Program-made: the position numbers and the translations under genes
Notes under the pieces: generated by a model
Told to the model about the DNA's origin: nothing
What the model saw: the letters and a program-made list of their open reading frames with translations, nothing else
Database searches by the model: none
Shown here: positions 1 to 24,146 of the stretch, one piece after another
Layout of the letters: each line of letters begins with the position of its first letter
How positions within the stretch are numbered: the first letter of the stretch is position 1
NCBI GenBank assembly: GCA_020746875.1
Contig: JAGTJL010000006.1
Coordinates: 2,852,001-2,916,000 of the forward strand
DNA: 64,000 nt
Direction: 5' to 3'
Source of the DNA: Rhexocercosporidium sp. MPI-PUGE-AT-0058
Taxonomy: Eukaryota; Ascomycota; Leotiomycetes; Helotiales

Positions 1-1614
1 ATATAAATAATAGTTTCGTATATATTAAGTAATATTTTTTATTATATTTATTTAATAATATTTTAAATATAAAAGCTTATACGTTTTAAACTTTTTTAAT
101 TAAGTTTATTTATAATATATTAATATTAAAAACTATTGGTTTTTCGACGTATAATAAATTTTTTTTAAAAAAAAAATTTAATTATTTACTTTTAATTTAT
201 TTTCGAAATATTTAAAAAAGAATTTTTATTTTTATTTTTATATATAATTTTTTTTAAAAAAATATTTTGAATTTATTATTAAAAACCTTTTTGTTTTTAA
301 TTAGTATTAAGTTTATTTTATTTAATTTCACGCTAAGGTTATAAAAACTTAAAACTTATTTAATTTTAAATAAAAAATCTTTTATATAATATTAACTTTT
401 AATTTCGGTTTTTTTTTTATAAAGTCGATATATAATAATAAAATAATAAAATAGCAAAGCTTTCGCTTATTTAGCTTTTCGACTTATAAGCTTTTTAGTT
501 ATTATAAAATATTTTAATATTTATTTAATTTTTTTGTAATTTAAAGCGCTATTATTTTAAAAAGCTTATAATAATTAGTATTTTTTTAATAAATTTTATA
601 ATTATATTTTATAAAAATTATTATTTTCGAAAAATAAATTATAAATTTTTTATTTTTTTATTTAAATATATTAATAAAAAATTTCGCGGACGCCCAGAAA
701 TTAAATCCGCTATTTTCGCTATTTTCGCTAAAAGGCCGCCTTTAACGCTTAAAGCCGCCTTTTTAAATTTTAATTAGTCGTTAATATTAAAAGCGCCAGT
801 ATATTTTAATAAACCTTAAACTTAATTAAGTAATTTTTTATAAATATAATTTAAACGTTAAAATATTATAAATTAAAAAAATTATTTTAGCGTTTTTTAA
901 TTAACCGAATCTAGTTAGATTAGCGTTAATTTTAAGTTTCGCTTATATTTCGTCGAGCACGTCTTAAAAACTAATCTCGCTAAAGCTCTTACGTTATAAA
1001 TATTTAAGTTAAAAAAATTATAATAAGAAAATCGTTTGTTTTAAGTAAATTATATACGCACGCCAGCCGGCCTTAGCCTTAATCGGGCGTTATAAGAAGC
1101 ATATTTATTATTATTATATTATAATTATTATTAATATATTATTAGTATATTATTATTATTAGTAATACTTTTATAAACTTTATTAATATATTAAATAAAA
1201 TAAAATAATAAAGCCTTACTTTTAAAAGTAAGGTTATAATACACTAGTTTATTTCGGCGCTTTTTACGCTTTCGGCGCGCTTTTAATTTATTATAATAAG
1301 AAACTGTCCTTAAAATTTTCGATATATAACTTTGGCTTTAAAAGCGCTATTCTGGCGCTTTTAGCGCCGTTGACGGACGTCCGCTTCTCGATTTTTTTGC
1401 AAATATATAATTGAAATATTACTCCAGCAATTATATTATTTAAAGTATTAATCTAAATTATAATAATATAAAATTATTATTAATATTAAATATATTTTTA
1501 GTTTTTTGAATATATTTTAATAATTTTTATTAAAATTAAATAAAACGTTTAAATAAATAAATCGGAATATAAATTTATTACGTATTTTTATAATTTCGAA
1601 TAAAACGTTAATAA
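1..1614. other. RIP-degraded AT-rich DNA, no gene seen
   Basis: Very AT-rich sequence with abundant TTAA, TATA and residual CpG (cgcta, tcgaa) but few CpA or TpG, the pattern left by RIP on repeats. I see no reading frame, RNA gene or intact mobile element. It is probably decayed transposon sequence of unknown family. Confidence 0.7.
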
Positions 1615-1975
1615 TGAAAAGAAGAGATTTAATATAAATAATAATTCTTAATTCTAGGGGAAACTGCGTTTAAATAACTACTTTAGAAGTACTCGCAAGC
1701 TTAGCTTAATTAGGCTATAGTAGCCGCGACTAGGCCAGCTAGCTTTAGCCAAGCTAGCTAAGCCGGTATATGAAGCTTCCGGTAGTATTAAAGTTTAGCT
1801 CGGTTATAGGCTTTAGCTACGCTGAAACTTGCTCAGTTACGACTGTTTCTAGGCTTTGTATTCGTTTAATATGCTTTATAAATGTTTTAATATACGAGCT
1901 TATTATACGAGCTTTCGTTTATTTATACGAGCCTCTTGTTAAGCGAGTTTAGCCGAGGCTTAATATAATCTTATA
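1615..1975 (-). mobile_element. Solo LTR, family S, minus orientation
   Basis: On the minus strand this 361-bp unit starts TATAAGATTATAT (TG decayed to TA) and ends CTCTTCTTTTCA. It is flanked by a perfect 5-bp target duplication aataa (1,610-1,614 and 1,976-1,980). It matches the solo LTR at 63,558-63,960 in inverted orientation: both share a stretch around aagcctcggctaaactcgc near the start, a tagttat...gtttcccc block, and the terminal aaatctcttcttttca with C-to-T differences. No internal region or partner LTR lies nearby, so it is a recombined solo LTR. The 60-codon open frame at 1,770 inside it is incidental. Confidence 0.8.
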
Positions 1976-1980
1976 AATAA

Positions 1981-2613
1981 AAGTTTCAAAATTATAAAAA
2001 TAATTGCATACTTTTTATAATAATTAATACTTTTTAATTTTCAATTATTTAAACTTTTCTTAAATTAATAAAATTTTATTAATTAAAATAATAAAGCTTA
2101 AAAACTTGGTTTGTAAAACTTTAAGTTTTTACTTTTTAATATTCGCTTATAAGCCGATATTTTTTAATATATTATTCGAAAAATAAAAATATTATTAAAA
2201 TATATCGTATAAAATTTGTTTACGTAATTAAATAAAACCTTATATTTATATATATTATACGAAATTCGAAAAGTTATTAATTTTTCGAAATCCTAGTTTA
2301 ATTTAATTTAATAAAAAGCTTAATATATATTAATTATTTTGCTTATTTTTGCCAAAATATCGTTTATTAATAATAATAAAAAATAGGTTTTGCGAATTAT
2401 AGCCTTTACTTTTAATAATTAATATAAAAGCGTAATTTTTTATTTGCTTTTTTAATAAATAAAACAAAAGCATTAAATAAAAGTTAATTTTCTTTTAAAA
2501 TTATTTAAAATATTTTAGTATATAAGTTATTATTTTATATAATATATATTTTAAATCGTAATAATTATAATATTCAAACTCTTTTCTATAATTTAATACT
2601 TTAATGTAATATT
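1981..2613. other. RIP-degraded AT-rich spacer
   Basis: AT-rich DNA between the solo LTR and the left LTR of the first gypsy element. I see no gene, RNA or terminal repeat in it. Confidence 0.6.
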
Positions 2614-2875
2614 TAACTTTTTATTAAATAGAATTCACGGTAGGCAAAGCTTCGTAGAAGTTCAGGGTAAATTATATTTAAAGAATTAATCTCTAGCCTT
2701 TAAAGAAGTCCAAAAGAGAAGCGTATATATAAAAGAGATTACTTATAAAGGAAAGCAAAAGCCGGCGTAATTAAAAATATAAGCGAGATTAATTCTATTA
2801 ATATTATAAAAGCTTCGGCTCTCTTATATTATAAGTCCGATTTTATATAAACAAAATAAATAAGTATATATATAA
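2614..2875 (-). repeat. 3' LTR of first gypsy element
   Basis: This 262-bp repeat aligns along its length with 11,071-11,330. Shared blocks include ttcacggta, tctctagcctt, gaagtccaaaagagaagcg and gccggcgtaatta. It is more AT-rich than its partner, with CA-to-TA and TG-to-TA changes. Because coding is on the minus strand, this left copy is the 3' LTR. Confidence 0.85.
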
Positions 2876-5800
2876 TAATTATTCCTTCTCTTAATAATAA
2901 CGTCCGCGATATTACTGCTTTAATTAATAATATATTAATACGCTTTCGCGTCGCTTAAAGCGAGGACTAAGCCGCGGTAAGTCGGATAACCGTATTCCGG
3001 TTAATAAGTTTAGTTAATTAAATTAATACGGTTATTTAAATTATTACGCTAAGTATATAATATTATACCGCGATTAGTCCGTCGGACGTCGTTCAATTAC
3101 TTTATAAGCTATTTCGTATAATATATTAATATTCTTAGCTTAATAAATAAAGATAGTTTTATAAAATAACAGAAGATATTTATTTTAATTATAGGACTTT
3201 TACGTATATAAATAAGAATTCTTATATTTATATTCGAGTATTATAATTATTATTATTATTAAAAAATTATCTTCGGTCGGCGAAATAATAGGCAGGTTGC
3301 GCGCTAATAGCGTATTCGCGTTTATTTACTAAATGAATAAAATACAAATAATGTAAATATAATAATAAAATTACGTAGTAATTACGACTTTGCTACTCCG
3401 CCGAGACGTATATATAAATAACTTCTTCGTCGCGCTAATAATAACCTTTTCTCTTTAGCTTATTTATATATAATACTCGTACTTATACGTCGCTATTTTC
3501 CCGTTTCTTTCTTTTTTTTCTTTTTTAATTAATTATTAACTTTATTATTATATCTTTTAGATAACGTCTTAAGTTTATCGCATTTAATAACCTTACGAAC
3601 TAACTTCGTAAAAGTTCTTATAATTAATACTTTAAAGCTATACTAATCGACTTCTTCTTCCGTTATATTAATAAAAAAGGCAAAAAGAATTGCAACCGCT
3701 ACTCCGAGTAAAAGTCTGTTTATATTATCGTACGTACTTATATTTATAAAGTTTATTAATAATATAATATTAAACGCATTAAAAATAAACCGTATATTAA
3801 TTATAAAATAAATAATTCTCTTATTTTTTTTATAAAAAATATCCGTATTATAAAGAACTTTACCTTCGATTTCGAAGACTAGCTGCGCGAGAATAATTAA
3901 TATAATACTAGCGTCGCCCTTAAGGATTATAACTTCACGCTTCTTACGGGAGTTTAGAGCTTCGTTATTTAGCTCGAGAAGTACCGTATAACCGATTCTT
4001 TGTCGCGCGTATCTTTTAAGCCCAATAAGAAAAATACTAATTAAATCTCTTTTTTTATTAATACTTTTCTTATAAGTTATATATTTTTCTTTTAAAATAT
4101 TATTAATATATTAATAAAATAAAAGAGTTCGAGAAGTTTTATAAAAATATAATACGCTTAATCGGCAATATATTTAAGTTTAAGAAGGCTTATATTATTA
4201 CTTTTGCTTCCGAGTCCGACTAGATCACGCACCATTTAATAAAGGAATTAATAATTAAGATTTAATTATACCGCGAAGTTATAATAACTATTATAAGTAT
4301 TCCGTACCCGTTTTATTACTAATATATATTAATATTATATTAAAGCAATATTACATCGAACGAGACTATTAGAGCTATTTCAGGAGATATTTTGTAATTC
4401 TTTAACGCTTAATAAATATTACGATACGGGTTTAAGTTTAGCGTTAAAAAGTTTAAGATTTTCGAATAATTCAATTTATAAAATAAATATTTTATACTTT
4501 AAGTACTTGCGATAGAATTACGCTATTATTTTATAGTTAAAATAAAATCTCGTTGCTTTTTAAATTATAATTTAAATATATTTTATAAGTTTATTTTTTT
4601 TTTAAATACAGTATTATACTTACGCCGGCGCTGCTTTTAAAGCTTTAATAAAACCTTTAAAACCTTTATAAGAAAATATAAGGAAAAAGTATTTTTATTT
4701 ATAATCGGCGGTGTTTTCTTAGCTTCCCGATTTTTTATAGTTTTCCGGCCTTTTCGTAAGTTACGCGAAAGTTTTATATTTCTTTATATTCAGTATTTGA
4801 CTTTCTAATTTATAATTCTTATTATATATATTAAGAGTTTCTTTAATATTCTCGAGATTTAAGTATATTAAGAGTTAAGTATTATAATCTTTTAGGAAAT
4901 CTTTTTATTTAATTAAATATTTCTTAATTTTACTTCTTGTATTTTATTTATAATTAAGAATGCTTTTAACTTCTTATTCTTAAAGATTATTTTCTTCGCT
5001 TAGCTCCGGAAGCTCACCGAGTAGGTAATTATTTAGTTACTTACTAGCTTATATTATATATTCCTTTAATAAAAATATATAAAATATTAAGTAAAGCTTT
5101 TTATATAAGCTTAGCAGTTTTGGAATATATATTGCATTACTTACGTACTTAATAAGCCGATATATTTTAGCGATAGCTTTTTAATTTTTAATCGAATATT
5201 CTTAATATTAAATATTATTTATTATTTTAATTAAAAATATTTATTCAAATGTTAAGCGTTATAATAGCTTTTCCGATTTTATTACGCATAATCTTAAACT
5301 TTCGTAAGTTCAGCTTATTAATTATTTAATAATTTAATTCTATCTCAGGCAGCTAATACTTCTTTTTCTTGAATATTATTCTTAAGGTTTTATAATATTA
5401 CCGGCTTATAGCTATAGTAGACTTAAAATAGAAATATTTAAAGCGTTTAATAAAAGGAATTATTATAAGTAAATTCAGCAAAAGCTAGTTTCTTTATTTA
5501 ATTTTTCTATAATATTCCGCAGAAAGCGCAGAAATATATTTTTAGATTTTGATTTTGCTTTTTATTTATGTATTTAAAAAATAATATATAAAGCTTAGTT
5601 TTTATTTAATATATATATAAAAATAAAGAATAAACCAGAATTTATTAATAAATATCGTACTTTTATTAAATACAATACTTTAAAGTACGCTAAAAAGAGA
5701 AAATACTTTCTTAAATAATAGTTCTATAAGTTCGGGAATATTAATTGTTTTATAATATATTAAGTATTAAGCTATCTTCGAATACGGGTTAATAACTATT

Positions 5801-8800
5801 AATATATAATTAAGATTTAAGCTATTAAATAAGTCTTTATAAAGCGGTAATTTTATAATGAAATTTATTAAAATCTCGGACTAAAGCCGCGAAAGCCTCG
5901 GGAGACTTATTAAAAGTTTATATAACGCATATCGTTTTAATTTAATTCTTTAATAAATATTATATTCTTTAATATATATTTTAATATTATCTTTTATTAT
6001 ATCTTAAAAATAAGTTCTGTAAAAGAATTATAAAGTTTTTATAATACGGTAATACCCTATTAATAAGTTATTATAATGAAGTTTTATAATTTTTGTTCTC
6101 AATATTAAATTATTTAAAATATAAATTCTGAAATATTATTAGAAAAGTTCTGATAAATCTAGGTTTTACTTTTGATTTAGCTGAGATTTAAGTTTATTTA
6201 TTATATTTATTATACTTTTGCAGTTTTGATTATTACGTTAAGCGAAAATAATTAAATCCCGCAGCGGCTTCGTTAATAAAGCTAGAACTATTTAACTTTT
6301 AGTTATTACTTTTATTTATAATATTAAAATAAGATATTTATAATTATTAATTCCTGCGATAAGCGGCTAATTTTCGCTCTTTATATATAATAATATCTTT
6401 ATAAATAAAGCTATTATTTTAAATATAATATCCAGAGAATTAAGTTTTATATATTTAACTTCTAGAATTCTTTTCTAAATAACTCGTTCCGGTTTTATTA
6501 GCATTAGGTCCGGCCTTTTATTAATAAGATCTTAAATAATATTAAATAGTTTTTTTAATAATATTTTATAATTCTTATTTAAGAATATTTTAATATTAAT
6601 TCTTCGATTTCGTAAAGTATTTATAAAAGCTCTTTTTAATTTATTTTAAAATATTAGTAACTAAGTAATATCAATAAGGCTTTCAGATTTCCGATAATCT
6701 AGCCTCTTATCAAGTTTATCCGTTAAGTTTGCGGTACTTTTATAATAATAGATTTCAAAATTATAAATAATAAGATATATTACTTATTATACTTATCGAC
6801 TCTCGAAATATTTCGCTATTATAAAATACTTAAAATTATTATAATCCATAAGTATTTTAATAATATATTAACTATCCCTAAAATGATATTTTTATTCCTT
6901 AAAATACTTAATAATAGCTAAAAGCTTTTTATCGTAAGTAATATAATTCCGCTTAATATTAGTTATCTTACGGGATTAATACGTAACAGGTTTTTAATAT
7001 CGCTTAAATTCTTCTTCAGAATTAGCTTACTAAAAGAGAGTATTAATAATTACAAATCTAAAAGTATTAGTTTTAACCCGAATGCTTTTCGTAAGATCGA
7101 AATGCCTTATAAATAATATATTAATAAAAGCTACTTTTAAATTTTTAAAGCTTTTTTTAATTATATTAAAGAATTCAAAGGATTCTTTTTTAATTTTATT
7201 CTTTATATTTTAGAAAGCTTCCGTTAAGCTTATAATTATTTTAAAATATTTTAATATAAATTTACGATAAAAATTCGCAAAGTTTAAAAAAACTTAAATA
7301 TCTTTATAAAATTCCGGCTTTAATTATTCTTAAATCGAATAAATCCGCTTTAAGTCCGCTTAAATACCGATTAATTCGATTTTAAATCCTAAGAAGTCGA
7401 TTTAATTTATTTTAAACTTATACTTATTAAGTTTAATAAAGAGCTTATATTTACGCAATTATTCTATAATAGCTTTAATATACTTACGGTATTTTTTTTT
7501 ATTTTTTATTTTTAAAATAAATTAAGATATTATTAAAATATATAATAATAAAATAATCGATTAATCCTACTAACGCTTTATTAATATACGCTTAAAACGT
7601 AATTAAAGCGTTAAATAACCTAAAAAGTATTATTAAATATTTAAAATATTTATATTTTATACGAAAAGCTATTTTTTATTTATATTCTTTTTTAATTTTA
7701 ATATAATAATATATATGTTTTAAATTTAAAGCCGTAAATATTATAACTCCGCCGAGACGGTTTAACGTCTTATTAATTAAAAGAAAAAAATAGCGATTTT
7801 TAATTATTATTTATTTAACTTTCTATAATCTATATATAAACGTAATCTTTTATCTTTCTTTAATATAAATAATATCGGCGTACTTACAGGACTTTTTAAT
7901 AAACAAATTTATCTTTTTTATAATAAGGCAATAAAGTATTCCTAAAGCGTAATAAGTTATAGTTCGGAAAGGTTATAAAAAGAATTATACGAAAGTAATA
8001 CGTTAATATTAATAATATACTCGAATTCTTTAGGAAGAGTAATTAGCGGATTATCGTCGTATATATTTATTATATTTACAAGTTAATCTTAGAGAAGTAT
8101 TAGCTTAAGAGTTTTTAATTAAATAACTAATACTTACGACAGATTTGCGACGCCGGTATTAAAACGAATATCCTACGATTGCTTCAAATACTTACACGAT
8201 TTTAAATTCTTTAAATAATTATAATTAAATTAAGATATAATTATAATATAAAGTATTATTTTAAAGTCGGTATTAAAAATATTAATAAACTCCTTTACTA
8301 TTATAATTTAGATTTCGTCTTAAGTTAAAGCGTAAGTTTATTTCTTAAGTTTTTAATTATAATACCCGGCGCTCTTATATTTAAGGAATTCTATTTTTAA
8401 AATTATATTATATTTTAAATTTTTATAATTATAAAATCTTTCTAGAAAGGTTCTCGAGATTCTACGGTCGTCTTATATAATTATATATAAGTTATAAGCG
8501 TTAATTACCCGGAATTAATACTTATTAAAAGTCATAAACTTTTAATTATAATTAAATAAAAGAAAAAACTTTTATAATTTAATTTTATATTTATTAAATA
8601 AATTATAATTTAAGCTATTATTTATTAAATTATTAAATAACGCATTCGTACTTATCTTATGTTACTTTAATCTTATAGAAATATACAAGCGTTTAAGAAT
8701 ATCTCTTAAGCCTTCGACGCTTAAGACTTAATATTACTTTTTTCCGCATTCTTTCCGGTATTAAACGGCTTTTATTCCTTAACGCGTATAATAATATATA

Positions 8801-9615
8801 TCTTCTTTTTATTTAAAAAAAAAATTCTTTATTACGTTATAACGCTCTTTAAGTTTAAGCTTTTAAAGATTATTTTGCGCTTATTATATAAATTTAAAAT
8901 AATTATAATCTTTAAATTAATAACTTTCTTACTTATAAAAACGGCAAGATATAGTATTCTTAATAAAGTTCTTTTTCTTATTGTTTTTACTTTTATTAAA
9001 AGGTCGGAAACTAAAAGCTAAAAAAGCGCTATTAAATGCGCGCTTCTTATTATTACTTTTAAAATATTCTTTACGGCTTCTCTTACGAGATCTACTATTT
9101 CTAAGATTATTATTACCTTATCCGCCTCCGCTTCCGTTATACTCAGCTTTTAGTGCATTAGAAAATACTTTTTAAATTCTTTTAATAAAAGACTTAATAT
9201 TATTAGCTAGTTTTTTCTATTATTAATAAATATTAAGAAGGTTTATAAAAGCGTAAGAATTAATTTATTATGCCGTCGGTGCATACGTGATTACTTTACG
9301 AAAGTTAATAATAATATTATTATTAAACATCCGAGTATTACAGTCTGTAATAAGTATAATAAACCGTCGGTATATCGCTTAAATAAACTCACCCGGTTAC
9401 TAGCGGAACCGCTTAATATTTTTAATAACCTTAGCACTTCGAGTTTCTTTAAAAGTATAAAGCTTTTTTAAGAAGTCGATAAACAAGTTCTATATTAGCA
9501 GGATACTTTCGAGTTTAGTTATAATTTACTTCGTATTATTTTAATAAGTTAATAAGTCGCCTTTTATATTTACAGCTGAGACGCGTATTCGATTCGCATG
9601 CGTATTATAACTATA

Positions 9616-10107
9616 CAGTATGAGCAAAAATAATCACGTTAATCGACTAATAATCAGATTAATTGATTAGATTAGATTAGAATTAGATTAATTAATTTAA
9701 ATTAATCTAGATTAATCTGATTAATATATAACTTATAAAAATACTCATTTAATTGATAAAATGCTGTTTATTTACTTATAAATATTATTAATGTATTATA
9801 TTAATAAACTAATAATCATATATTATATAAACAATAAATAACTTAAAGATCGATTTTACTTCGCTTAAATTAGCCAAGTCTCTAAAGCTTTAATTGACTT
9901 TATTTTGAGTATATACTAAGCCTTATTCGGACTAGTCCTAAGAGTTTAAGCCTAATTAGGATGCGGCTCTTGTATTAATTATATTAATCGATTAACGCTT
10001 GATTAATTTGATTAGATTAGATTAGAATTAGATTAATCTAAATTTTTCTTGATTAGAATTAGATTAACAGCCATTAATTTAATCTAATCTAATCATTTTT
10101 TACACTG
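9616..10107. mobile_element. hAT-type MITE (492 bp)
   Basis: Non-autonomous DNA element with imperfect terminal inverted repeats (CAGTATGAGCAAAAATAATCA at the left, CAGTGTAAAAAATGATTAG on the opposite strand at the right). It is flanked by a perfect 8-bp target duplication taactata (9,608-9,615 and 10,108-10,115). An 8-bp duplication with CAGTG-like ends is the hAT signature. The interior repeats gattagattagaattagatt near both ends and encodes nothing. It keeps many CA and TG dinucleotides although the surrounding gypsy gag is RIP-mutated, so it probably inserted later. Confidence 0.85.
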
Positions 10108-11070
10108 TAACTATATAAGCGAGCTTTAAAGATCTCTTCTTAAGCATTTTTCTAATTTCGCAAGCTTTCGAAACTCTTTTCCTTATATTTTTTAAGAATT
10201 ATAATCGTAAGGCATTTCTCACGGTCGCGCTTATCTTTCGCTTAGGCCGTAATATATTTTAATAAAATATAAGCGTCTAGATTTAAATATATTAATAATA
10301 TTATTTTAAATTTATAAGCTACGTAATTTGCCGTAAGTAATACAGTTATTTCCCGAGAATATCCCGGGGCCGATAAAATCCCAGGCCAAGCAAGTTAGCT
10401 TCTAATCTTAAATTAAAGTTACGCTTTATTGTCTCTTATTAAAGTAGTAATAATAAAATCTAATATTATATTACGGGTTTATTAAAAGCTTTTTTCAACC
10501 GTATATTATTTATTTATTACGTTTATATAAGCGACGGAGATTGCCTAAAAGCGGCGAAATTTAGCAAAACTATTCTTATAATAAGTGAGCCGCGTCTTCG
10601 CACAAGTATCCTTAACCTTAAACTTAATTAATAAGCGTATATACTCTTCGAGCTCGCGCTGCTTTTAAGCGATCTATTCTTCAGTAAGTATACTTAAAGC
10701 CGCAAGATTAATATTAATATTAAAAATAAAAAACATTATATTATCCGTTATATAATCGGATATATTTAAATTATTTCAGTTTAAGTTATAATTTTACTTT
10801 TTTTTTCACGAGTATAAATAAGCTAATTATAAGTATAAGAAGATTCCTTATTACTATTATCGCGAGTGCTTTAAAGCAGTTTATTATTAAAAGCACTTTT
10901 GCTTTTAATATTATAAAAGAAATCTATAGATTTTATAATCTTATAAAGAATATTACGAGTAGTACCGCCGAAGCGAGTATTACCCGCAAGTCTAGCGATA
11001 CTAAATATATTTACTTAATAAAAAACCGTTCTTTTATCTTTTATATTACTTTTTTATAAAATAAAAAAAT

Positions 11071-11330
11071 TGACTTATTAAATAAAGTTCACGGTAAATA
11101 AAGCTTTATAAAGGTTTAAAGTAAATTATATTGAAAAAATTAATCTCTAGCCTTCGAAGAAGTCCAAAAGAGAAGCGTATATATAAAAAGAATTACTTAT
11201 AAAAGGAAGTAAAACGCCGGCGTAATTAGAAATACAAGCGGAACTAATTCTATTAATGCCGTAAAAGCCTCGGCTCTCTTATACTACGGGTCCGATTCTA
11301 TACAGATAGAATGAATAAGCGTACACATCA
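11071..11330 (-). repeat. 5' LTR of first gypsy element
   Basis: A 260-bp partner of 2,614-2,875. On the plus strand it begins TGACTTATTAAATA and ends GTACACATCA, giving canonical TG...CA ends. It keeps more CA/TG than the left copy, so the two LTRs were mutated to different degrees. Confidence 0.85.
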
Positions 11331-12180
11331 TACTTTTTAATATATTTTAACGTTTTGTTTTATACAAAATTTTGTAAATTCGATTTATATTTTTAATTTT
11401 TCGAATTTCGTTTTGTTTTTTAAATATATAAATTAAAATATTAAACGGTATATTAAATTTATACTTAAAGTCGGAAATACTATTATTTAATTCCGCTTTT
11501 GCTTTTATATTAAAATTAATATTGTCATTTTTATATAATAGCTATTTATAATTTAAAACATAATTTGCCACTTTTTTTTGTTTATTTAATTTAAATAAAA
11601 AGTTTTTAATATTAATATTTTTTTAATAATGTTTTTAAAAAGCGTTTAATAATAATTGCTTTTTAGTATTCCGAAGCTTTTTAAATAATAATAGCAATTT
11701 TTTTTTAAGTTTTTAGGCCAAATAAGGCATCGGCTTTTGCTAATTAATTTTGGTTATAAGCAATATTTTGTTAATAAGTAAATTAAACGCGATTTCTTTT
11801 TTTTTTAAAAAAAAAACGGTTATAACTTTAATTTAATTGCTTTCAAAAAATTATATATAAAAGGTTATTTTAATAAATCAAAAGTAAATAAATATATAAA
11901 TAATAAAAAAGTATCGTAAAATAGTTTGATTATAAAATAAACAAATATAATATATCGCGTCGCGTTTTTTTTTCGTATTTAAAATATTATTAAACTTTTT
12001 TAAATAAAAATAGTTAAGCTTTAATATTATATAATAGCTTAGTAATTTTATATATAAGTACGCAAAAAATCGAAAGTAATTAAAGCCTTATTTATTAACG
12101 GGATTATATTTATAAAATACTAAAGCTAAGAAAAAAAAGGGTTGTAAAAATAAAGCTTTTAAGTACTTAGTCTTTTCTAC
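11331..12180. other. RIP-degraded AT-rich spacer
   Basis: AT-rich DNA with poly-T and poly-A runs downstream of the gypsy element. No gene, LTR or inverted repeat was recognised. Confidence 0.6.
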
Positions 12181-12520
12181 TGGCCTACCGATCAGGTCAT
12201 GTAACAGTTTGTATTATTTGCTTATAAAGTCACGAGGTTCGGGTCTCGCGCTAGTATATTTAAACTTCTAAGCTTTACTCAAACTTGCCTCGAAACCTGC
12301 TTTCTAAACCTGCCTCGCTTATATAAACCTGCTTAGGTGGATTTGCTAAATCTGCCTCCAAGGAAATCGGCCTAGTGACAGTGAATCTTGATCGGTACTG
12401 TCACACCCTCGGCTTTCAGTTTTAATAACCGAGGTATTTTGGAACTTTCTACGCGTTTTATTTTACTATATGAACCGACAACCAGACCCAGAGCAGCCTA
12501 CACGGCAATTTACACGTGAT
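12181..12520. other. Low-RIP unclassified patch with inverted repeat
   Basis: About 340 bp of near-normal composition between AT-rich blocks. It holds an 8-bp inverted repeat gtgacagt...actgtcac (about 12,375-12,404) and a repeated cctgc/cctcg word set (cctcgaaacctgc, aacctgcctcg). A TGTCACACCC string resembles the start of some fungal LTRs, and a gttcgggtc string vaguely resembles a pol III B box. Neither is enough to classify it. Confidence 0.4.
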
Positions 12521-12835
12521 ATATAAATATTTTAATTATAATGTATATCTTTTATTTTTATTATTATATAATTAATATAAAATAAAAATATTTTATTAAT
12601 ATTTTAATATAAACAGAATTTCGTATTAATTAATTAGAAACTAAAATAAAGTAAATAAAAATAAAATAAAAATATAAGATAAAAACGAATTGTAATTTAA
12701 AGTTTATAAATATAAAAGCTATTAAACAAGCTTAAATTATAAAATTAATGAAAAAAAAACCTTAATATATTAATAGATTTTACTAGTATAAGCAATTATA
12801 TAAAATTTCAAGAGTTTTAAAGTTAATAAGATTTA

Positions 12836-13271
12836 AAGTGGATGAGTTGTAACTAAGCGAGGTGGTCGGAAGAAAAGGGTAGCCAGAAGAAGGAGGTAGC
12901 CGGAACAAGGGGGCACGCACTTAATAGAAGTGTACCACGGGCAGGGTCTCGCCTCAAGAACGACTTGCTCGATATAAACTTTAATTGAAAGTTCGTCTTC
13001 GGTCTAATATCTCTTACTGTCGGTAGTCGTACAGAGGAGGCGTATGGCATGATATTCGGTGACTAGTTTCAAATACCTTGTACACAGGGTTCTTAATTTA
13101 TCAAATATCCCGCCCCCTGGTAACACTAAAAAGGAGACATATAAAACCTCCAGCAAAAGTTTAACGTTAAGAAAGACAACCAGATCCACAAGATTATTTA
13201 TTCTCTCTTGAAGTACTCGCCTTTTAGTACATTGTCTGTGAAGTCAGTCCCACCCCGTCGGAAATTTAAAG
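12836..13271 (+). promoter_or_regulatory. Upstream region and likely promoter of the IPT-LOG gene
   Basis: Composition returns to normal at about 12,836. A TATAAAA box lies at 13,140-13,146, about 125 bp before the start codon, the only clear core-promoter element here. The start context aaagATG has A at -3, favourable for fungal initiation. Open frames on the minus strand here are short and resemble nothing known. The promoter is bounded upstream by RIP-type DNA, so nearby heterochromatin could influence expression; that is inference. Confidence 0.5.
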
Positions 13272-14787
13272 ATGCATTTTATTTCAATCATCGGCCCGAC
13301 AGCTGTTGGGAAAACTAAGCTGGGTGTTGCAGTCTCTAAGGTCGTCGGAGGAGAGGTTATTTCCGTCGACAGCTTGCAGTGTTACAAAGCTGGAAGCATT
13401 GTCACTGCGAAGGTAAAAAACGAAGAGGCTGACGGTGTGGCACACCACTTGGTTGACTACCTCCAGGCTTACGAGGAGCCGAATGACTTTGTCGCTCGAG
13501 CAATTGATAAGATGGAAGAGATGGAGAACTGTGGCCACATGCCAGTATTGGTTGGAGGGTCAACTTCATTAACAATCCCTCTTCTCCTTGCGGCCCCTGA
13601 ACGTGGCTTTCAACATTTTACGATACTGCTATGGTCGCCAATACTCTCTCTCCAACCCAGGATTGAGGAAAGAGTAGACGAGATGATAGGTAGAGGCCTT
13701 CTCAACGAGCTGAGGGAACTCAAGCGACTGGAAAAGGAACATTTGGGGACCCCTAACTTCCAAAAAGGCGTTTGGAAAGCAATTGGATACAAGGAGCTCT
13801 ATCCTTGTCTTGAGGCTTTGGATGGAGATGAGAATCATGATCTTTTGAGGGAGTGCCTCACGTCGATGAAACAAAACACTGTTGACTACGCAATTACGCA
13901 ACTTTGCTGGATGCAGCAAACCCTGATTCCTTTGCTTGCTCAGCTCCAAGTACCATCTGCGAGTCTTCGAGTAAACGGTGGCGCCGTCTGGAAGGATGAG
14001 GTCGAAATCCCTGCCCTTCGAATGGTCAATGGATTCTGGAATAATGCAGCACCAGCAAAGGAAATCTCTCTGGTCGCACCCTTGAAGATGTCTGACTCTT
14101 CTAAAAGACCCACCATCTGTGTTTTGTAAGTTTCTTAGCCCTCCTCAACGGAGACTCCGTCAGTTTACTTACGACTGCAGTTGTGGCTCCTCCGCTGGAA
14201 CCTCCCCTGCTTATATAGAGGCGGCACGGTCTCTTGCCTACACCTTTCATCGGAGAAATATCCATCTCGTTTATGGCGGGGGGACTACTGGTATTATGGG
14301 TGCACTAGCTCACACTCTGGTGTCGCTCTCCGGTCCATCTGCGGTCAGCGGTATTATACCTGAGGCGCTGGTCAAATATGAGCAACGGATGACAGTCAAT
14401 TCTGTTGAAACTTACAAAGACGAGTTCGGAAGCCGGACTGTAGTCAAGGACATGCACGCACGGAAGCATTTGATGGTACAGAATGTGATTAATGGTGGTC
14501 CGGGAAGTGGATTTGTGGCACTTAGTGGCGGTTACGGGACAGCGGAAGAGTTGATGGAGGTGACGACATGGAGTCAGCTTGGAATCCATAACTTTGGTGT
14601 TTGTGTCTTCAATGTCAATGGTTTTTACGATGGGCTACTCTCATGGGTCAAGAAGATTGCCAACGAGGGATTTGTACCGGCGGTTGACGCTGATATTATT
14701 ATGCAGGCATATTCAGCTGAGGAGGTCGTCGAATCCCTGGGAGCTCATGTGGCGGCGGATGGCAAGGCAAAATTGGACTGGGAATAA
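13272..14787 (+). CDS. Bifunctional cytokinin synthase: adenylate isopentenyltransferase fused to LOG phosphoribohydrolase
   Basis: Two exons (13,272-14,125 and 14,181-14,787) encode 486 aa. The IPT half (about residues 1-235) would transfer a dimethylallyl group to AMP/ADP/ATP. It shows a P-loop GPTAVGKT (8-15), D33 in ISVDSLQCYK, HHLVDY (58-63), VGGSTS (94-99) and ERVDEMIGRGLLNEL. The LOG half (about 282-486) would release the active base from the riboside monophosphate. It shows VFCGSS, YGGGTTG (316-322), MHARK (376-380) and SGGYGTAEE (400-408, usually PGGYGTxxE). About 45 low-complexity residues link the halves. No signal peptide is evident, so it is probably cytosolic. The fused architecture matches the IPT-LOG enzymes reported in Claviceps and Fusarium. 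Both halves are open with no nonsense codon although RIP-mutated repeats flank the gene, so it appears functional. No P450 partner is visible. Splicing is inferred from sequence only. Confidence 0.93.
14126..14180 (+). other. Intron of the IPT-LOG gene (55 bp)
   Basis: It starts GTAAGT and ends CTGCAG, with a branch-point-like ttactta/cttac shortly before the acceptor. Removal joins GTTTT to TTGTGGCTCC and restores the LOG motif V-F-C-G-S-S. Without splicing, the IPT frame would end at TAA (14,127-14,129) just after the residues ICVL. The length is typical of fungal introns. Confidence 0.93.
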
Positions 14788-15331
14788 TTGAATAATGTTA
14801 GGCTCAATGCAATGTACCTTTTCTTGCTATTTGGAGAGACTTGCCGTGTCTACCCCTCCGTATGGAATTGCTTGCATATGCAAAACACTACATATGTCTA
14901 CCACACTTTTAAAATTGAAAAACTATGGACATCTTCGGTGAGGTATTAGTCCACCAGCACCCACCTATTGCACCAATGAATATTGCTGCGGTCTCGATTC
15001 TATACGCAGCAATCCTATTGCTATATGCAGAATAGAAGCTACGATTATATCAGATGCGTATCCCGTTTTATATACTTTTCCTTGTATAATATAGCTTTCT
15101 TTAAGAGCGATATAAACCCCCTCTTACACGTCGGCTGATCCTCATTATACTTGAGTCTCCTCGCTAAGCTCGTCGATTGCAGCAACTCTGATATAATACT
15201 AACACTAACATTTTATTGCCCCCCACGGCACAATAGTATAAGGTTGGACACATGAAAATTATATTTCTTGAGTAAGTAAGAGAAATATTCCTGCTGCCGC
15301 CTAACAGTATTCTCCATAGTATCGACTGTCA
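14788..15331. other. Intergenic region downstream of the IPT-LOG gene
   Basis: Normal-composition DNA without a convincing reading frame. It must contain the terminator of the IPT-LOG gene, and possibly a promoter for the next gene (a gatataaacccc string at about 15,109-15,120 is TATA-like). I see no RNA gene or repeat. Confidence 0.5.
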
Positions 15332-15646
15332 ATGCCGTTTTTTTGGTGGTGCGGGAGCCGAGATGTCCGTGCATGCAAAACTTTACTATTGATTGCCATT
15401 ACCATTAACCCCAACCCCAGAATCCATCACCAAACCTATTTAAATCATCAAAACCAAGATGCAAGAACAACAATTAACCTAGCCCCAACCCATCCCCCAG
15501 CCATTGGCCCATTTGATTCAGATGAACGTGGAGTATGGCGTGCTGATTTGTATAGGCAATGGATGTCGCTATGCAGTCAGTCCGGCAAGCATTTCAGAGC
15601 ACTTGCGCAGAAAGCATCACACAGCAAGGAGTTGCGACAACAAGTA

Positions 15647-17501
15647 ACGTAGGTGGTAAGCGAGTGGTTATTGTAAACGAGTGGTTACGCCCCCCCACCT
15701 ACCCGAACAGAAATCACTAATATTAATCAACGCGTAATTATTAACTCTTAAAACTAGTTTTATTCTATTATCTACGTGCTGGGCATGTACGGGCATTATG
15801 TTCAGTTGCTTTACATATGCTACACCTTGCTAAGGCGCGTGGTTGGGGCTGTGCACGTGGTTCTGCCTCCTCCTCTATAAGCCCGTTTTCAGCTATTTCT
15901 ACTAGTTCTATGCCCTCTTGAACTGTAAGAACCCCCCTAGGTTGTATAAAAGACCTCCTTATTGCTCTCTTCCTCTTTTGACGTGCGTTTTCGGCCCGTA
16001 ACTGCTTATTCTCCTCTGCTAGAATTGAAGCATTATGCATAGCTATTTTGCACCCCTTAACTAACTGCTGAAATGCGAAATCTGTAGGACTAGAAGGGAT
16101 ATTTGGATGCATCCGACGCTGTAAAGACTCTTTAATTGACTTTGCTTGAAGATCTACTGCTTCGGGATACTGTGGTGTCTTTGGAGTCCATGGTAGAGGT
16201 AGTGTAGGTGGGGGAGTAGGTGTACGGATCTGTATATTAAGCTTTGAGAGCACGCGTTCTGGGTCGAAAGGGACTAATCCGGTAGCTGCAAAACCACTGC
16301 GTGCAATAGCAGGAGTTATTGATTCCGGACGTGCTCTGCTATATGCTGTAAGGAAGTCCGCTTTGTCGATATAGTTGACTCCATTACGCATTAATTGCTC
16401 GATCTGACGCCCGTACGCGCGTTTTAAGGTTGCAAAACAGCTCACATCCAAAGGTTGTAATAGATGAGAGCTATGCGCGGGCATACAGAGAGTAATAATC
16501 TTGTGCTTTGTACAAAATAGGTCGAATTCCGGTGTTATATGACTCCTATGCCCATCCAGAATTAAGAGTCTATATACTCCCTTTGTACGTGGTGCTGTAT
16601 ACGGCTCAAAAACAGTAGAGAGCTATAAAAGACCTAACTGATCATTGGTCCACCCCTTTTCACTGAGTGCAATTACCTAATCGCGTGGTAAATCGCTGCT
16701 GTACCACGTAGAGATATGCACCTTTCCCTCAAGAATAATCACAGGAGGAGGCCCGTCACCTGTAGAGTCAATTGACTCAATAACTGTAACCCATTCGCGA
16801 TTCCCTGGTTGAACAGCAACTGCTCTACCTGCTCTTTCCTTGCTTGAAACTACTTTTGCAGTAGCTATCACCCCTATTTGGAACCCCGTCTCGTCAAAGT
16901 TATGTATATCCTCCACTAGGATACCGTATTTCGCGATTGTGTTCCGTACAAGGTCAAACCAGGCTCGTATAATTGAGTAATCTTCGCAAAGAGCACGCTG
17001 GTAGTCGTATTTTCTTGTATATTTCGATTGGAGGGAGTGGTGCCGTTGTACGTAGTTATACACCCATTTTTGCCTAATAACCAAAGCTTCCACTACTCTT
17101 GCGCCACCGCGTTTTGAAAGCAGTATATTAGCTATTGCGCGTATAGACTGGAGTCTCACGGGTAGACCTCTTCCAATCATAGCTAATATCCATTGCTCAA
17201 GGGTCTGCTCTTCTAAGTCCGTAAGTTTCCTGCCGTTGGGTGTAGAAACGCGTCTTTCAGGGACACCCTTTACGCGTCGTGATGCTGTAGAATATGGTGT
17301 ATTAAAAGCTTTGCAAGCTGTAAAAAGGTGCTTAAATTGGCCATTTTGAAAGGCTTGTATAGCAAGAGCGACTCGGCCTTCGTTTTGTGACATTTCGAGA
17401 GTAATTGGTTGAGTTATTCGTGGTTAGGTGTAGAGAGTTATGCGCGAAGGTGGGGGGGCGTAACTACTCGTTTACAATAACCACTCGCTTACCACCTACG
17501 T
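15647..17501 (-). mobile_element. Fot1/Pogo-type Tc1-mariner DNA transposon (1,855 bp)
   Basis: The termini are inverted repeats of about 54 bp starting ACGTAGGTGGTAAGCGAGTG at both ends, differing by one base. It is flanked by TA target duplications (15,645-15,646 and 17,502-17,503), as expected for this superfamily. It contains one transposase gene on the minus strand, of the usual Fot1 length. Composition is near normal, so it is much younger than the AT-rich elements around it. It interrupts an unrecognised gene on the plus strand. Confidence 0.95.
15768..17393 (-). pseudogene. Fot1/Pogo transposase with two in-frame TAG codons
   Basis: The frame runs 541 codons from ATG at 17,393 to the stop at 15,768, interrupted by TAG at 16,677-16,679 and 16,623-16,625. 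Both sit where related transposases have Trp (after LPRD, and in QLGLL.LST), so each is a TGG-to-TAG change typical of RIP. Domains in order are an N-terminal Psq-like helix-turn-helix (about 1-50), a CENP-B-like helix-turn-helix (about 54-130), and the DDE catalytic core with NFDETG, LILDGHRSH and LLQPLD. The second and third Asp are separated by 35 residues (DD35D). A C-terminal CX2CX4HX4C knuckle (CSICKATEHNARTC) follows. It would bind the inverted repeats and cut and paste the element, but it is inactive unless the stops are read through. Confidence 0.93.
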
Positions 17502-17940
17502 TAGACCGTTATATTCAAGAGTTTCCATTTGAGTATGATTATTCCAGTGTTAGGATACCCCCAGACGGTTAAGCCCCACAACCCGTCATCCCGGTTGTCA
17601 ATGGATTATAGTGCAAGCATTACCCAGCAAAGCCATTCAAAACCCAGAACCGAAAGGCCATCAAGGTACATGGAAACGAAGAACATGGCAAGAAGAGGGT
17701 CGCAGACGTGGATTTGTTTGATCCAGTCAGGTTGCAGTTATGGTTTCGGGAAGGGAAAGAGCGGTATTGGGTTGTGGATAAGAGCACGCAGCCAGTCCAG
17801 TCCGGTCAGCAAGGCCAGTCCGTTAGTATTGGTGAAGCCGAGGGTATATACTACATCGGATTTTGGGTGAAAGGCGGCAATTCCCCCTATTGCCGCCGGA
17901 AAGAGAAGGCGGTCACTGAGGCTAACACTTTGACCTTCTT

Positions 17941-18590
17941 ATCACCTGATAAGGGTTCGTTAAAAGTAGAGCACTCCTTACTTATTACACGGACCACCGT
18001 ATACGCGTTTATACTAGTGAGAGAGGCATTAGCGCGTCTTCTTCTTATTTTATTACTTAAAATAATAAGCGTTTATATTATTAAATTCTCATAATAGATC
18101 TTCTCTCTTTTAGTTTAACTTATAATATTTTAATCTATATGAGCTGTAAATATATAATTCATTTTACAGCTATTGTAGGGCACTTGTACGATTATTATAA
18201 AGCTGCTATCCTACTCGGTAAAGTCCAGGAATACGCCCGTCTCTTTACCCCCGACTCTTTTACTTCCCCGGGAAGTGAAACAGCTTTATGTGCTAACTTA
18301 TACGCCGCCGATTGCTTACTTGCGAATCTACGATAATACTTACTCTTGCAAGCTATGCCCTCCTAATTAGCTATATATAATCCGAAGCAAGCGGATTCTA
18401 CTTAATTATTTAAAGGAGGCATATTAATAAAGTAAGAGTAAAAGCTTTATAAACCGGCCAGCTAAATTACGTCTTCTATTTAGCACTATTATTTATTTCT
18501 TTATCGTTTGCTAAACCTTTTATATAAAAGACTACACCCCCTACTTTTTCGTTAATAACGGCAAGATTAGCTTTAATCTAGCACCGGCAT
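17941..18590 (+). other. Transition into RIP-type DNA, possible decayed coding
   Basis: Composition drops from normal to AT-rich. A 65-codon frame at 18,139-18,336 (starting MSCKYIIHF) continues in the same frame to about 18,590 with only TAA/TAG stops, which suggests RIP-decayed coding. It may be the upstream part of the telomere-linked protein relic that follows, but I cannot match it to that family. Confidence 0.35.
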
Positions 18591-20830
18591 AGCTCGCGGA
18601 AGCACTTAAGAAATTATCCTTTAGCCTTCGAGAACAAGTGAAGCAGACCCTCGCTCAAAAGCTTTAAGCACTTCAGCCTGATATTACCTTGCGTTATAAG
18701 ACTGAAGTCTTTTTATAACTCGACCTAACGTAATAAGAGCGGTACTTCCGGGGTTATAACTTAAGTTACGTCGCACGTCTCCTTAATCTATTATTGCCTT
18801 ACCCCTTCTTCGACCCCGATTAGCTAAATAATCACCTCGTCCTCGTACTTAAATCGTTCGACCGTCTTATTAAGTAAGCCCGTAAATCGCTCCGAACCGA
18901 CCGGATTAATATCTTTAATTAATAGCGTGTTAATAGCTTTTTTACCCGTCGTATTACTAACTTTTCGTTAATACATAAGCTTTACAAAGGAACTTATATT
19001 ATATATAAAAAAGTATAAAAGCAACCGCTAAGCTTTATTTATCGGCGCGTCTAGCGGAACTAAGGCCCTGAGCTCTTTTATTATCTAACTGACGCTTAAG
19101 TAACAGCCCTCGATTGAGTAATATAAGCTGCGGCCGAGCTTGCCTAGGAATAGTAAAGCGTTAGTCTGGCGCTAATATAACTTTAGTAAAGTCTCGATTA
19201 TATTACGATCCAACTTTATATCTCGCTATTAAATTATGCTTTATTCGACATAATTTATAATAATATCGTCGTTGTCTTTATAGCGGTTCTCGGTATTAGA
19301 AATCTTAAGTTATCGGTTAATTAGAGTGCTATATTTAGCGATTTTTTATATTATACTCCTTATTTTTCTGCTTTTGTCAAAATAGCTTAGTTTTTTATTA
19401 TTTAACGGGCGGTGCTTACAGTAGATCGAGGAGAGGTTCTATATATAACTGATATATTGAATGCTATATAAGAGCGCTTTATGGTATATAGCACGCATTC
19501 TCTTATAAACTAAGCATAAAAGCTGCGCAGTTTTGGGAAGTAAATTAATAAGATTATTATTTCTTTAGGATATATCTCCTGGATTAATAATAGTGAATAC
19601 TTTAGCTATAAGGGCTTCGAATTAAGGATGATCGACTTAAAGAAGTTCTTAGCGACTTAAACAGCTGTTATATAACCCTCGCTCTTAGAGGAGTTATTAC
19701 GTGTATATCCAGACGAGAAGCGAGATAAGGTTATTCTATTAATTAATCTTTTCCGATTTAAGGACGACCCGGCGAATGGCAAGCCCGGCTGGTGCTTCCT
19801 GGACGACCCACGGAATAACTACTTTTAAAGACATGATCGATAGCTGCTTAATCGCGTGCTAGATAAGGGTTAGTTATAGCAGGAGTTCCTGATTAAGAGT
19901 ATAAAGGCCTTATGGCGGCCTAAGACTGCTGAGCAATACTTAAAGCAGGTAAATATTTTCCTTCCTTATCCATATCTTAAGAGGCCAGCCTGCACGGGGA
20001 ACTGAGCTTCTTAGCTTATAGCTACGTAATATTATTCACGGGTTATAGCGGAATATCTTTATCGAGAATAGCCTTATTAGCTTTATTACTTTTTATTATA
20101 AGGGCTATAACGTTTCCGGGTTAATTAAGATTACCTACCGGTATCTGCCCGAGGCAATAAGTGAGTTCTTAGTCTATTACGCTTAGATTATTTAGCTATT
20201 CTGTAAGTAATTGTGTATACTTACTTTAAACGAAAGCCTTAATACGCTAACTTTCCTTTAAGCGATTAAGAAAGGAACTTATAGCGAGCCGTGGCTAAAT
20301 AGTCGCTTAATGAACGTCCTTATATAATAGTTCAAGCAGCATCTTAATACCGATGCAAATATCTTTCTTTGGCGGCACGTAGCGATTACTATCTCTCGCC
20401 GGCATTTACGGCAAGCCAAGTTCCGGAAGGACTACGGAGCAGACGCTAGCGGAACCTGAAATAACGCACAAGCTGTATATGCTGCTAATATAGCTAATAT
20501 AATTTATATTAAAGGAATTAAAGAAGCACCGGGTCATATTGCTTCTGCACGTGTAGAATACCGGCAGATCAGTAGAAAGTGGCATGTATATCTGAGGTTT
20601 TCTGGCTTTCAGAGGCTGGCTCGGATACAACCCACGGGTCCACAAACATCCGACCTCAGACAGGCTACCGAATCCTCAGTCAATTATCAAGCGCTACTCA
20701 AACGCAAAGTCCTCGGTGAATTGCCAATTCAAAGTCAGATAATTAAAAGCAATAAATCTAATACCCATTTACAAGACATGCAGAAAAGAGAGTCTTTACG
20801 CCGTGGAGTTGGAAAGGTGGGATAGAGAAC
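18590..20830 (+). pseudogene. Relic resembling fungal telomere-linked (TLH/RecQ-type) protein, N-terminal half
   Basis: A RIP-decayed plus-strand coding relic. Stops are TAA/TAG at likely Gln or Trp sites. Readable blocks are LREQVKQTLAQKL (about 18,630), WCFLDDPRNNYF (about 19,790-19,825), FLIKSIKALWRPKTAEQYL (about 19,890-19,945), GTELLSL (19,998 onward) followed by RNIFIENSLISFITFYYKGY (about 20,050-20,110), RYLPEAISEFLVYY (about 20,139-20,180), and APGHIASARVEYRQISRKW (about 20,527-20,583). From memory these blocks resemble the conserved region upstream of the helicase in large fungal telomere-linked or RecQ-like proteins. I see no helicase P-loop or DExH box, so only the N-terminal half survives. 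It could instead be another recombinase-like repeat protein. If correct, it points to a subtelomeric origin. Confidence 0.5.
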
Positions 20831-22036
20831 ATGCCTCAGTATAAAGGGTGTAAAGTACAACTTGTGGGAGGTAAAATAGATTTATAGGTGATAGTAAAAA
20901 TAAAATACGGTTACGTGCCTCTAATACATTCGCGACACTAGTGTCCTACGAGGCGCGGGCTCTTGTGGCTTTGGTTGTAGCGTATGGTTCTGGCTTTCTT
21001 TTTCCTCTTTTGCGCCCGCGGACAAGACTTCCCTTGCCAACTTTTACTTCTTTTGGGTTAGGGTTACTACACCTAAGTTATCTATTACGAAGAGGTTTTA
21101 GACCAGATCCCGTATCGAGGCCAATACCATATATAACGAGTATAGCAAATTAGCTTAACTACTAGCAACAATCTAATAGGCCAGCTTCAGGTGTTATAAT
21201 TTTAATATCTACTTTTAGCCGTGCTCACTTTTTCGACTTTAATATAATTATCTCTCGAAGGCCGATACATACGTTACACACGGCATTAAACAGGCTTTCG
21301 ACAAGAGAAACATTAAATCCAAGAGTCTATTCTATGAAGTCGAGGCGGGGAGTTCGGAAGAAAGCACGCCACACGGCCGTGTGAAACTCGATTGCGATTT
21401 CAAGTAGTCTTAAAAGCGGTCCTTGACAGAAGTAGCTGCTAATTTTAATTTAATATACGGCCTAGCGCTAAAGGCCAGAGTAATTTAATGACTTCGTCTT
21501 AACATTCGGCTTGACGGCGATGCTTTTGAGAAACCGCGAAACACTTATAGTAGAGCACACTTACTTATTGTTTTAGTACTTATTTGACTTAATATGGCCC
21601 TTAAATTATATTCTTCTGATAATCCTCGAATACCACAGGAGAGGTTAGCCTGCGCTTATGCAGACAGATTCTTAAAGAGTCCCGCAGGTAACGTAATTAA
21701 GTTAGAACCGTTGGCGATTTCTTCGCTAACGCCGCAGCATAAGATCTTTGATTAAAAAGTGAGAACTAACAATTATAAGTTATTATTATTATTAATATTG
21801 CTGATTAAATATTTTAATATATGTAGATACCGTCGAGTTATTATTAAAACCATTAAGAACTGCAAGTGGTAAGGAATTAATAAAGTTATTATATATAACG
21901 AGTTACCTAACGTTAGTTACAAATAATATTATGTTTGTCTTCTCGGCCCAGAATATATAAATCGAAAACTTAGTTTATTTTATTTTTATGTTAGGCTTAG
22001 TAGATTTCTCCTAGAATTCCACCTTAAAACGCTAAC
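20831..22036. other. Mixed-composition intergenic DNA, unassigned
   Basis: Patches of normal composition (about 20,640-21,160 and 21,280-21,460) alternate with AT-rich DNA. A 70-codon frame at 20,941 starts with GTG and is dominated by Leu, Pro and Arg, so I do not consider it a gene. No LTR, inverted repeat or RNA gene was found. Confidence 0.5.
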
Positions 22037-22239
22037 CATAACGCTAGGTGTACGATTCAGGGGTTACAGAGTCAGGCCAGGTTCGGACTAATTCCGGAGG
22101 CATATATAAAGAAGCTCCCACACCTCTAGAGCTCGATATCTTCTTGTTTCCTTCGTATTAAACCTATTAATACTCGATAGCCTCTGCTAATATACTCCTA
22201 TATACCTCTTGCACTGCTGTCTTAATTAATGTCGTTATA
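22037..22239 (+). repeat. 5' LTR of gag-only element
   Basis: This 203-bp copy aligns with 23,944-24,146, sharing acgattcaggggttacagag, ttccggaggcatatataaa and gctcgatatcttctt. The shared tatataaa is the likely LTR promoter TATA box. Confidence 0.85.
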
Positions 22240-23943: not shown

Positions 23944-24146
23944 TGTAACGCTAAGTATACGATTCAGGGGTTACAGAGTCGGGCCAGGTTCGGACTAGTT
24001 CCGGAGGCATATATAAAAAGGCTCCTACACCTCTAAAGCTCGATATCTTCTTATTTTCTTTATATTAGACTTATTAATACTCGATAGCCTCCGCTAATAT
24101 ACTCCTATATTTCTCTTGCACCGCTGTCTTAGCTAATATCGTTACA
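23944..24146 (+). repeat. 3' LTR of gag-only element
   Basis: A 203-bp partner of 22,037-22,239, starting TGTAACGCTAAG and ending ATCGTTACA. The short run aggaaaggggtaa just before it is a plausible polypurine tract for plus-strand priming. Confidence 0.85.

Follow-up and report, generated by a model that had tools for sequence, protein, structure and literature searches.

This locus raises the question of whether a gene lying between repeats affected by RIP can still encode a complete cytokinin synthase, and how such an enzyme came to be in a fungus of the Helotiales. The DNA analysed, termed the window, is a stretch of 64,000 nucleotides from Rhexocercosporidium sp. MPI-PUGE-AT-0058 (Leotiomycetes, Helotiales). 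It corresponds to C56:2852001-2916000 in an assembly of 62.7 Mb and 60 contigs. Judged from its sequence, an IPT-LOG fusion gene in this window very probably encodes an intact, single-copy, bifunctional cytokinin synthase (adenylate-IPT/LOG) that releases isopentenyladenine (iP), descends from an old fusion, and persists between RIP-mutated repeats. The strain is presumably a root isolate, as its name suggests, and we take it to be a member of the 41-genome Arabidopsis root set. The part of the main text of the 41-genome Arabidopsis root study available to us (PMC8664821) contains neither the word Rhexocercosporidium nor the word cytokinin.

Gene model and coding integrity

The gene occupies positions 13272-14787 of the plus strand, with an ATG at 13272 and a TAA ending at 14787, and its product of 486 amino acids is free of internal stops. 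Exon 1 (13272..14125) encodes the IPT half, which comprises residues 1 to approximately 260, followed by a low-confidence linker and the first LOG residues (TICV..). Exon 2 (14181..14787) encodes the LOG half, annotated as a cytokinin riboside 5'-monophosphate phosphoribohydrolase, and contains the motifs CGSS..., YGGGT, DMHARK, and SGGYGT.EE. Both exons are separated at the domain junction by a 55 bp intron of phase 2 (14126..14180, GTAAGT...CTGCAG), which was predicted in silico. If the intron is left unspliced, an immediate in-frame stop follows (TTG TAA). Within the range tried, two alternative GT/AG pairs likewise yield open products, of 490 and 471 aa, but were rejected as they destroy the conserved LOG start motif. 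Measured from stop to stop, the IPT frame (295 aa) is the longest of the 10 frames of at least 120 aa in the window, and the LOG frame comprises 233 aa. A TATAAAA sequence at 13140..13146, read approximately 126 bp upstream of the ATG on the same strand, is a putative core promoter. The gene forms a compositional island, with a GC content of 49% and a composite RIP index of -0.62, whereas the window as a whole has 29.6% and +0.87. Splicing, expression, substrate choice, and product are deduced for this gene from sequence and comparison.

The IPT half scores 98.8 bits with the Pfam model IPPT (PF01715, cut-off 23.6) and 31.7 bits with the model IPT (PF01745, cut-off 20), and the LOG half scores 93 bits with Lysine_decarbox/LOG (PF03641, cut-off 27). 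The latter also matches, over residues 1-200 of 201, the LOG from Claviceps purpurea (PDB 5ajt, E 4.4e-63), although that protein is unfused. For the IPT half, AlphaFold confidently predicts the fold of a dimethylallyl transferase. Conserved columns were counted without the window row in an IPT alignment with 15 relatives and a LOG alignment with 12 relatives. The gene keeps all 35 columns that are identical in the 15 IPT relatives and, inside the aligned piece, all 65 columns that are identical in the 12 LOG relatives. After removal of P0001 and the tRNA-IPT, 50/50 invariant columns of the IPT half are kept in comparison to the 13 relatives. At the 90% level, 59/59 IPT columns and 76/82 LOG columns are kept; three of the other six LOG columns lie outside the aligned piece and three, each conserved to at least 90%, are replaced (residues 11, 56, and 93 of the LOG piece of exon 2). 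The catalytic roles of conserved residues in the IPT and LOG halves are assumed here. The initial annotation had described both enzymatic halves as open and as containing all main motifs, and the uninterrupted frame, the Pfam scores, and the kept invariant columns bear this out.

Six-frame searches of the genome detected one IPT-LOG gene, one tRNA-IPT (C7), and two stand-alone LOGs (C1 and C18). No protein identical to the product of the window gene is present among the best 120 of 1748 and the best 120 of 3182 database matches, whereas the host tRNA-IPT is present among the database matches. The IPT-LOG gene thus seems to be absent from the public annotation of the host, although the search for an annotated protein had length limits and a gene model outside these limits could be missed.

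Repeats and RIP around the gene

According to dinucleotide indices, a RIP signature is found in 57 of the 64 one-kb bins of the window, including 13/13 bins at 1-13000. The seven bins without this signature (13001-18000 and 19001-21000) are explained by a young pogo-like transposon and weakly mutated DNA downstream of the gene. On the left flank, the repeat at 2901..5000 occurs in dozens of other places with 81-85% identity (40/122 candidates scored), and the repeat at 7000..9615 occurs in at least 33 other places with 82-86% identity (34/376 candidates scored) and shows RIP-type differences between copies. Upstream of the ATG, the closest repeat detected is a weak one at 12553..12834, with five other matches of 69-76%. 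On the right flank, a repeat extending from 43000 to approximately 44990 is found in at least 39 other places (40/589 candidates scored). Around the gene, no repeat was detected between approximately 12.84 and 15.64 kb.

The pogo/Tc5-like DNA transposon is located at 15645..17503 on the minus strand and begins 858 bp downstream of the gene. It has 61-nt inverted ends that are 95% complementary, and the domains HTH_Tnp_Tc5 and DDE_1. The reading frames of the element are broken between 16622 and 16677. In the genome, 13 other copies of at least approximately 1.5 kb are 71-99% alike, with the 99% copy located at C45:1911831. Compared with three copies, the element shows transition to transversion counts of 22:0, 68:0, and 102:1, and CpA is the top transition context (16/22, 32/68, and 62/102). 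These nearly transition-only differences with a preference for CpA suggest that RIP-type mutation was active recently. The left repeat at 7000-9615 was compared with three copies as well (L120-L122), resulting in counts of 333:30, 331:27, and 349:27. Here, CpT is the top context (180/333, 159/331, and 174/349), followed by CpA. Taken together, an excess of transitions is seen in 6/6 repeat pairs, with CpA commonest in 3/3 pogo pairs and CpT commonest in 3/3 left-repeat pairs. The preference of the heavily mutated left repeats for CpT over CpA departs from the textbook preference of RIP, unlike the young pogo copies.

The initial annotation had placed the gene in a RIP-affected, repeat-rich compartment, and the proportion of RIP-positive bins, the high-copy repeats, and the transition-dominated copy differences agree with this description. 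Its further claim that the DNA on both sides is saturated with RIP-type changes stands in part. Repeats with such changes are present on both flanks, but the right-hand neighbour of the gene is a young and lightly mutated pogo-like element.

Further elements were noted in the window and beyond. A 199-nt direct repeat (window positions 22039-22237 and 23946-24144) is 89% alike over a distance of 1.9 kb and possibly represents the ends of one element. At 59935-60375, a frame with a retroviral SH3-like domain is probably a Copia-type remnant. The final 500 bases retrieved from C56 contain 22 TTAGGG units, and the end of the gene lies approximately 109 kb from this contig end. The last 214 kb of C56 contain 67 frames of at least 130 aa, and 10 of them, from elsewhere in that stretch, were tested. 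Two are assigned to HET, one to a NACHT-type domain, one to P450, two to MFS, and one to a fungal transcription-factor domain; the other three comprise one Helitron, one Tc5/DDE, and one frame without a family. These assignments speak neither for nor against the idea of the initial annotation that the compartment is of a kind in which effectors and host-interaction genes often occur. The two HET frames and the NACHT-type frame, all long and open, lie on the telomere side of the window (L015:5197-7524, L019:5524-7860, and L017:86-2896). A Starship cargo was considered and rejected: a loose search for DUF3435 (PF11917) yielded 99 matches genome-wide, of which a single one is located on C56, at 954 kb, and none falls into the window.

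In such surroundings, the gene could be an intact but silent relic that is kept off by heterochromatin over the RIP-mutated repeats. The repeat-rich position, with RIP-rich DNA that could silence the gene, the proximity to the telomere end (about 109 kb), and the lack of a matching protein of the host annotation among the matches listed are in line with this explanation. It is nevertheless unlikely, as the coding sequence has neither a stop nor a RIP signature and keeps the columns that are invariant in relatives. In addition, a second lineage, represented by the metagenome sequence P0001, retains an intact IPT half with 93% identity. The two sequences differ in 20/284 residues, of which five changes have the RIP direction in the window, nine have it in P0001, and six have neither, and leakage of RIP into the gene was rejected on these counts. 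The preferred reading is that the gene persists as a small single-copy island amid RIP-mutated repeats. This case suggests that annotation can miss intact genes within RIP-rich DNA.

Predicted activity and the P450 partner

According to the proposed mechanism, the adenylate-type IPT half would transfer the dimethylallyl group from DMAPP to AMP, yielding iPRMP. The LOG half of the same protein would then cleave off the ribose 5'-phosphate and release free iP. For CpIPT-LOG, the fused enzyme of C. purpurea, both reactions are reported in the part of the review available (PMC7913349), with DMAPP being preferred and ADP/ATP not being used. The accessible portion of a Fusarium study (PMC6337686) names ATP instead of AMP as the substrate, which counts against the AMP reading. 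CpIPT-LOG has the same order of IPT followed by LOG in a single protein and the same motifs as the window gene; other Claviceps orthologues comprise 496-502 aa and are approximately 51% identical.

According to the same review, as far as its text was available, all fungal IPT-LOG genes, including that of C. purpurea, are clustered with a P450 (PMC7913349). In Fusarium, the IPTLOG and P450 genes are paired, and the P450 is thought to make trans-zeatin (PMC6337686, partial text). In contrast, the searches detected no cytochrome P450 gene within 50 kb of the IPT-LOG gene in the window. The nearest one (C56:2813386-2815145) lies in a separate island approximately 50 kb upstream, and its similarity to the cluster P450 is 23-36% (92/292 candidates scored). 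The best relative of the cluster P450 in the host is encoded on contig C3, with 37-42% identity. A P450 relic beside the gene was rejected. In tblastn searches, two queries hit the window at approximately 3.87-3.96 kb with E values of 0.65 and 4.1, which is chance level, and the frame at approximately 3.9 kb lies inside a high-copy repeat and, with the threshold relaxed to E 10, still shows no match to a P450 family. Since a linked P450 is lacking, iP rather than trans-zeatin would be expected as the main product, unless an unlinked P450, with the one on C3 as the best candidate, hydroxylates iP.

Deletion of tRNA-IPT alone, or together with IPTLOG1, left the seedling symptoms caused by F. mangiferae unchanged (PMC6337686, partial text). 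In C. purpurea, deletion of the two cluster genes partly reduced cytokinin and did not affect virulence, according to the portion of the publication at hand (PMC4765853). Therefore, a role of the window gene in virulence should not be assumed.

Relatives and descent

Homologues were drawn from the best 120 of 1748 and the best 120 of 3182 database matches. The best full-length relatives show 50-53% identity over 97-99% (among the best 120 of 1748 matches). All named two-domain proteins in this set belong to Fusarium, Clonostachys, Dactylonectria, Ilyonectria, Microdochium, Claviceps, and Ustilaginoidea, which we take to be Sordariomycetes. The Fusarium enzymes, including IPTLOG1 and IPTLOG2 of the Fusarium fujikuroi complex, share the domain order and comprise 482-498 aa in full length. 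The Pfam domains, the best relatives, and the alignments with their conserved columns agree in assigning the gene to the fused type known from Claviceps and Fusarium, as the initial annotation had put forward. No other named Leotiomycete fusion is present among the matches listed in either set. Cadophora sp. DSE1049 contributes the only named Leotiomycete IPT that is not of the tRNA type in the best 120 of 3182 matches (P0266, 42% identity), and it has no LOG. In a search of the prior literature that mainly covered sources other than subscription journals, no Leotiomycete IPT-LOG was found. The closest sequence among the matches listed, P0001, is a frame of the IPT half that ends at the same splice point as in the window gene. 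Another one, P0060, is 65% identical.

Based on the ends of unspliced frames (protein ends only), the splice point at the junction appears to be shared with several relatives. An immediate stop at the junction is seen in P0001, P0099, P0243, P0244, and P0245, and a short run-on in P0115, P0246, P0247, and P0248, with P0246 originating from F. decemcellulare. The stand-alone LOG that the host encodes on C1 is interrupted at the corresponding residue, whereas the one on C18 reads through. Thus, the splice point could have come with any LOG. At the start of the LOG half, the window gene has a C (CGSS), as do 4/4 stand-alone LOGs, in contrast to the G found in 8/8 Sordariomycete fusions aligned.

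In a LOG tree of 55 rows rooted with a bacterium, the window joins the fusions with a support of 100/99 and branches off before all other fusions sampled. A placement of the LOG half with stand-alone LOGs is weakly disfavoured (p-AU 0.076). Plain identity does not separate fusion from stand-alone LOGs, as the mean values are 57.6% for Sordariomycete fusions (n=19), 57.1% for Helotiales stand-alone LOGs (n=7), and 55.2% for Sordariomycete stand-alone LOGs (n=8), and the highest identity of any row, 60%, belongs to a stand-alone LOG. For this reason, the competing explanations of descent were given slightly more weight. IPT trees were calculated with 66 and subsequently 61 rows. P0068, a second F. 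austroafricanum protein with 37% identity and a long branch, was left out of the later trees. The window groups with a clade of eight stand-alone IPTs, three of which are named Eurotiales proteins (Penicillium/Aspergillus), with supports of 97/95 (66 rows) and 94/88 (61 rows). The IPT half is 55% and 53% identical over 83% to P0085 and P0242 from this nearest clade, which have no LOG half, unlike the window gene. Regarding the alternatives, a grouping of the window with Sordariomycete fusions is not rejected (p-AU 0.209), and a position outside both groups is nearly rejected (p-AU 0.056).

One explanation of this pattern is an independent fusion of a local IPT with a local LOG within the lineage. 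The affinity of the IPT half to stand-alone IPTs in both trees speaks for this, as does the stand-alone LOG alternative, which is not rejected by its p-AU. On the other hand, the LOG half groups with fusion LOGs (100/99) and apart from the C18 LOG of the host, which groups with Cadophora, and the inferred junction splice point is common to other fusions, though also present in the C1 LOG. On balance, an independent fusion is improbable. A single old fusion offers the simplest account, in which either the Eurotiales-type genes lost their LOG half or the IPT tree is slightly wrong, and most likely the gene shares an old fusion ancestor with the Sordariomycete genes.

Horizontal transfer in recent times, from a donor resembling Fusarium or Claviceps, would fit the restriction of all named two-domain proteins to Sordariomycetes and the lack of other named Leotiomycete fusions, each among the matches listed. 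Such a transfer is very unlikely, as even the best full-length rows reach only 50-53% identity and the window lies outside all sampled Sordariomycete fusions, including those of Fusarium, in both the IPT and the LOG trees. Furthermore, the identity of the LOG half to the Sordariomycete fusions is no higher than that of the C18 LOG of the host to Sordariomycete LOGs (mean 62.2%, n=8), and the distance between the window and Fusarium therefore looks like an old divergence. Transfer from an older or unsampled donor is still conceivable. A miscalled tRNA isopentenyltransferase or generic P-loop ATPase is scarcely credible: in sequence comparisons, the highest scores are those of the Pfam model IPPT and of tRNA-IPT structures, but the IPT half is fused to a LOG, lies far from tRNA-IPTs in the tree, and in the alignment lacks both the insert and the C-terminal C2H2 stretch of the host tRNA-IPT (P0121, C7), which we take to be a tRNA-binding element and a zinc finger, respectively.

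A more far-reaching and doubtful reading regards the gene as a still functional survivor of the original fusion, which would have arisen before Leotiomycetes and Sordariomycetes diverged and before a P450 was teamed with it, and as a lone synthase of iP only in a fungus that associates with plants. As part of this reading, the junction intron could serve as a switch. Retention of this phase-2 intron would result in an IPT-only protein, so that the splicing state would select between nucleotide precursor and free hormone.

Returning to the preferred reading of an old shared fusion, the enzyme type itself is already known from Claviceps and Fusarium. What appears to be new is the Leotiomycete host, the position as the deepest LOG branch, and the lack of a P450 within 50 kb. 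If the enzyme is active, the occurrence of fused enzymes that synthesize cytokinin de novo would extend from Sordariomycetes to a Leotiomycete. The gene may then also help to date the IPT-LOG fusion and, being naturally free of a linked P450, could serve to address whether iP alone is sufficient. Pyrenopeziza brassicae is presumably close to the genus Rhexocercosporidium. In the part of the literature source available (PMC5521058), this species is listed as producing cytokinin.

Two minor observations concern the sequences compared. The fungal IPTs P0085, P0078, and P0241 exceed the Pfam cut-off for Arginase over the IPT region, which is likely a false match. An arginase assignment for Eurotiales-type IPTs was rejected as spurious because of this location, with P0242 scoring below the cut-off. 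Besides, contig L040, which is assigned to a MAG of Deltaproteobacteria, contains a LOG gene whose product is 55% like that of the window. The match spans more bases than its residues require, which resembles an intron, and the contig is probably fungal and mis-binned.
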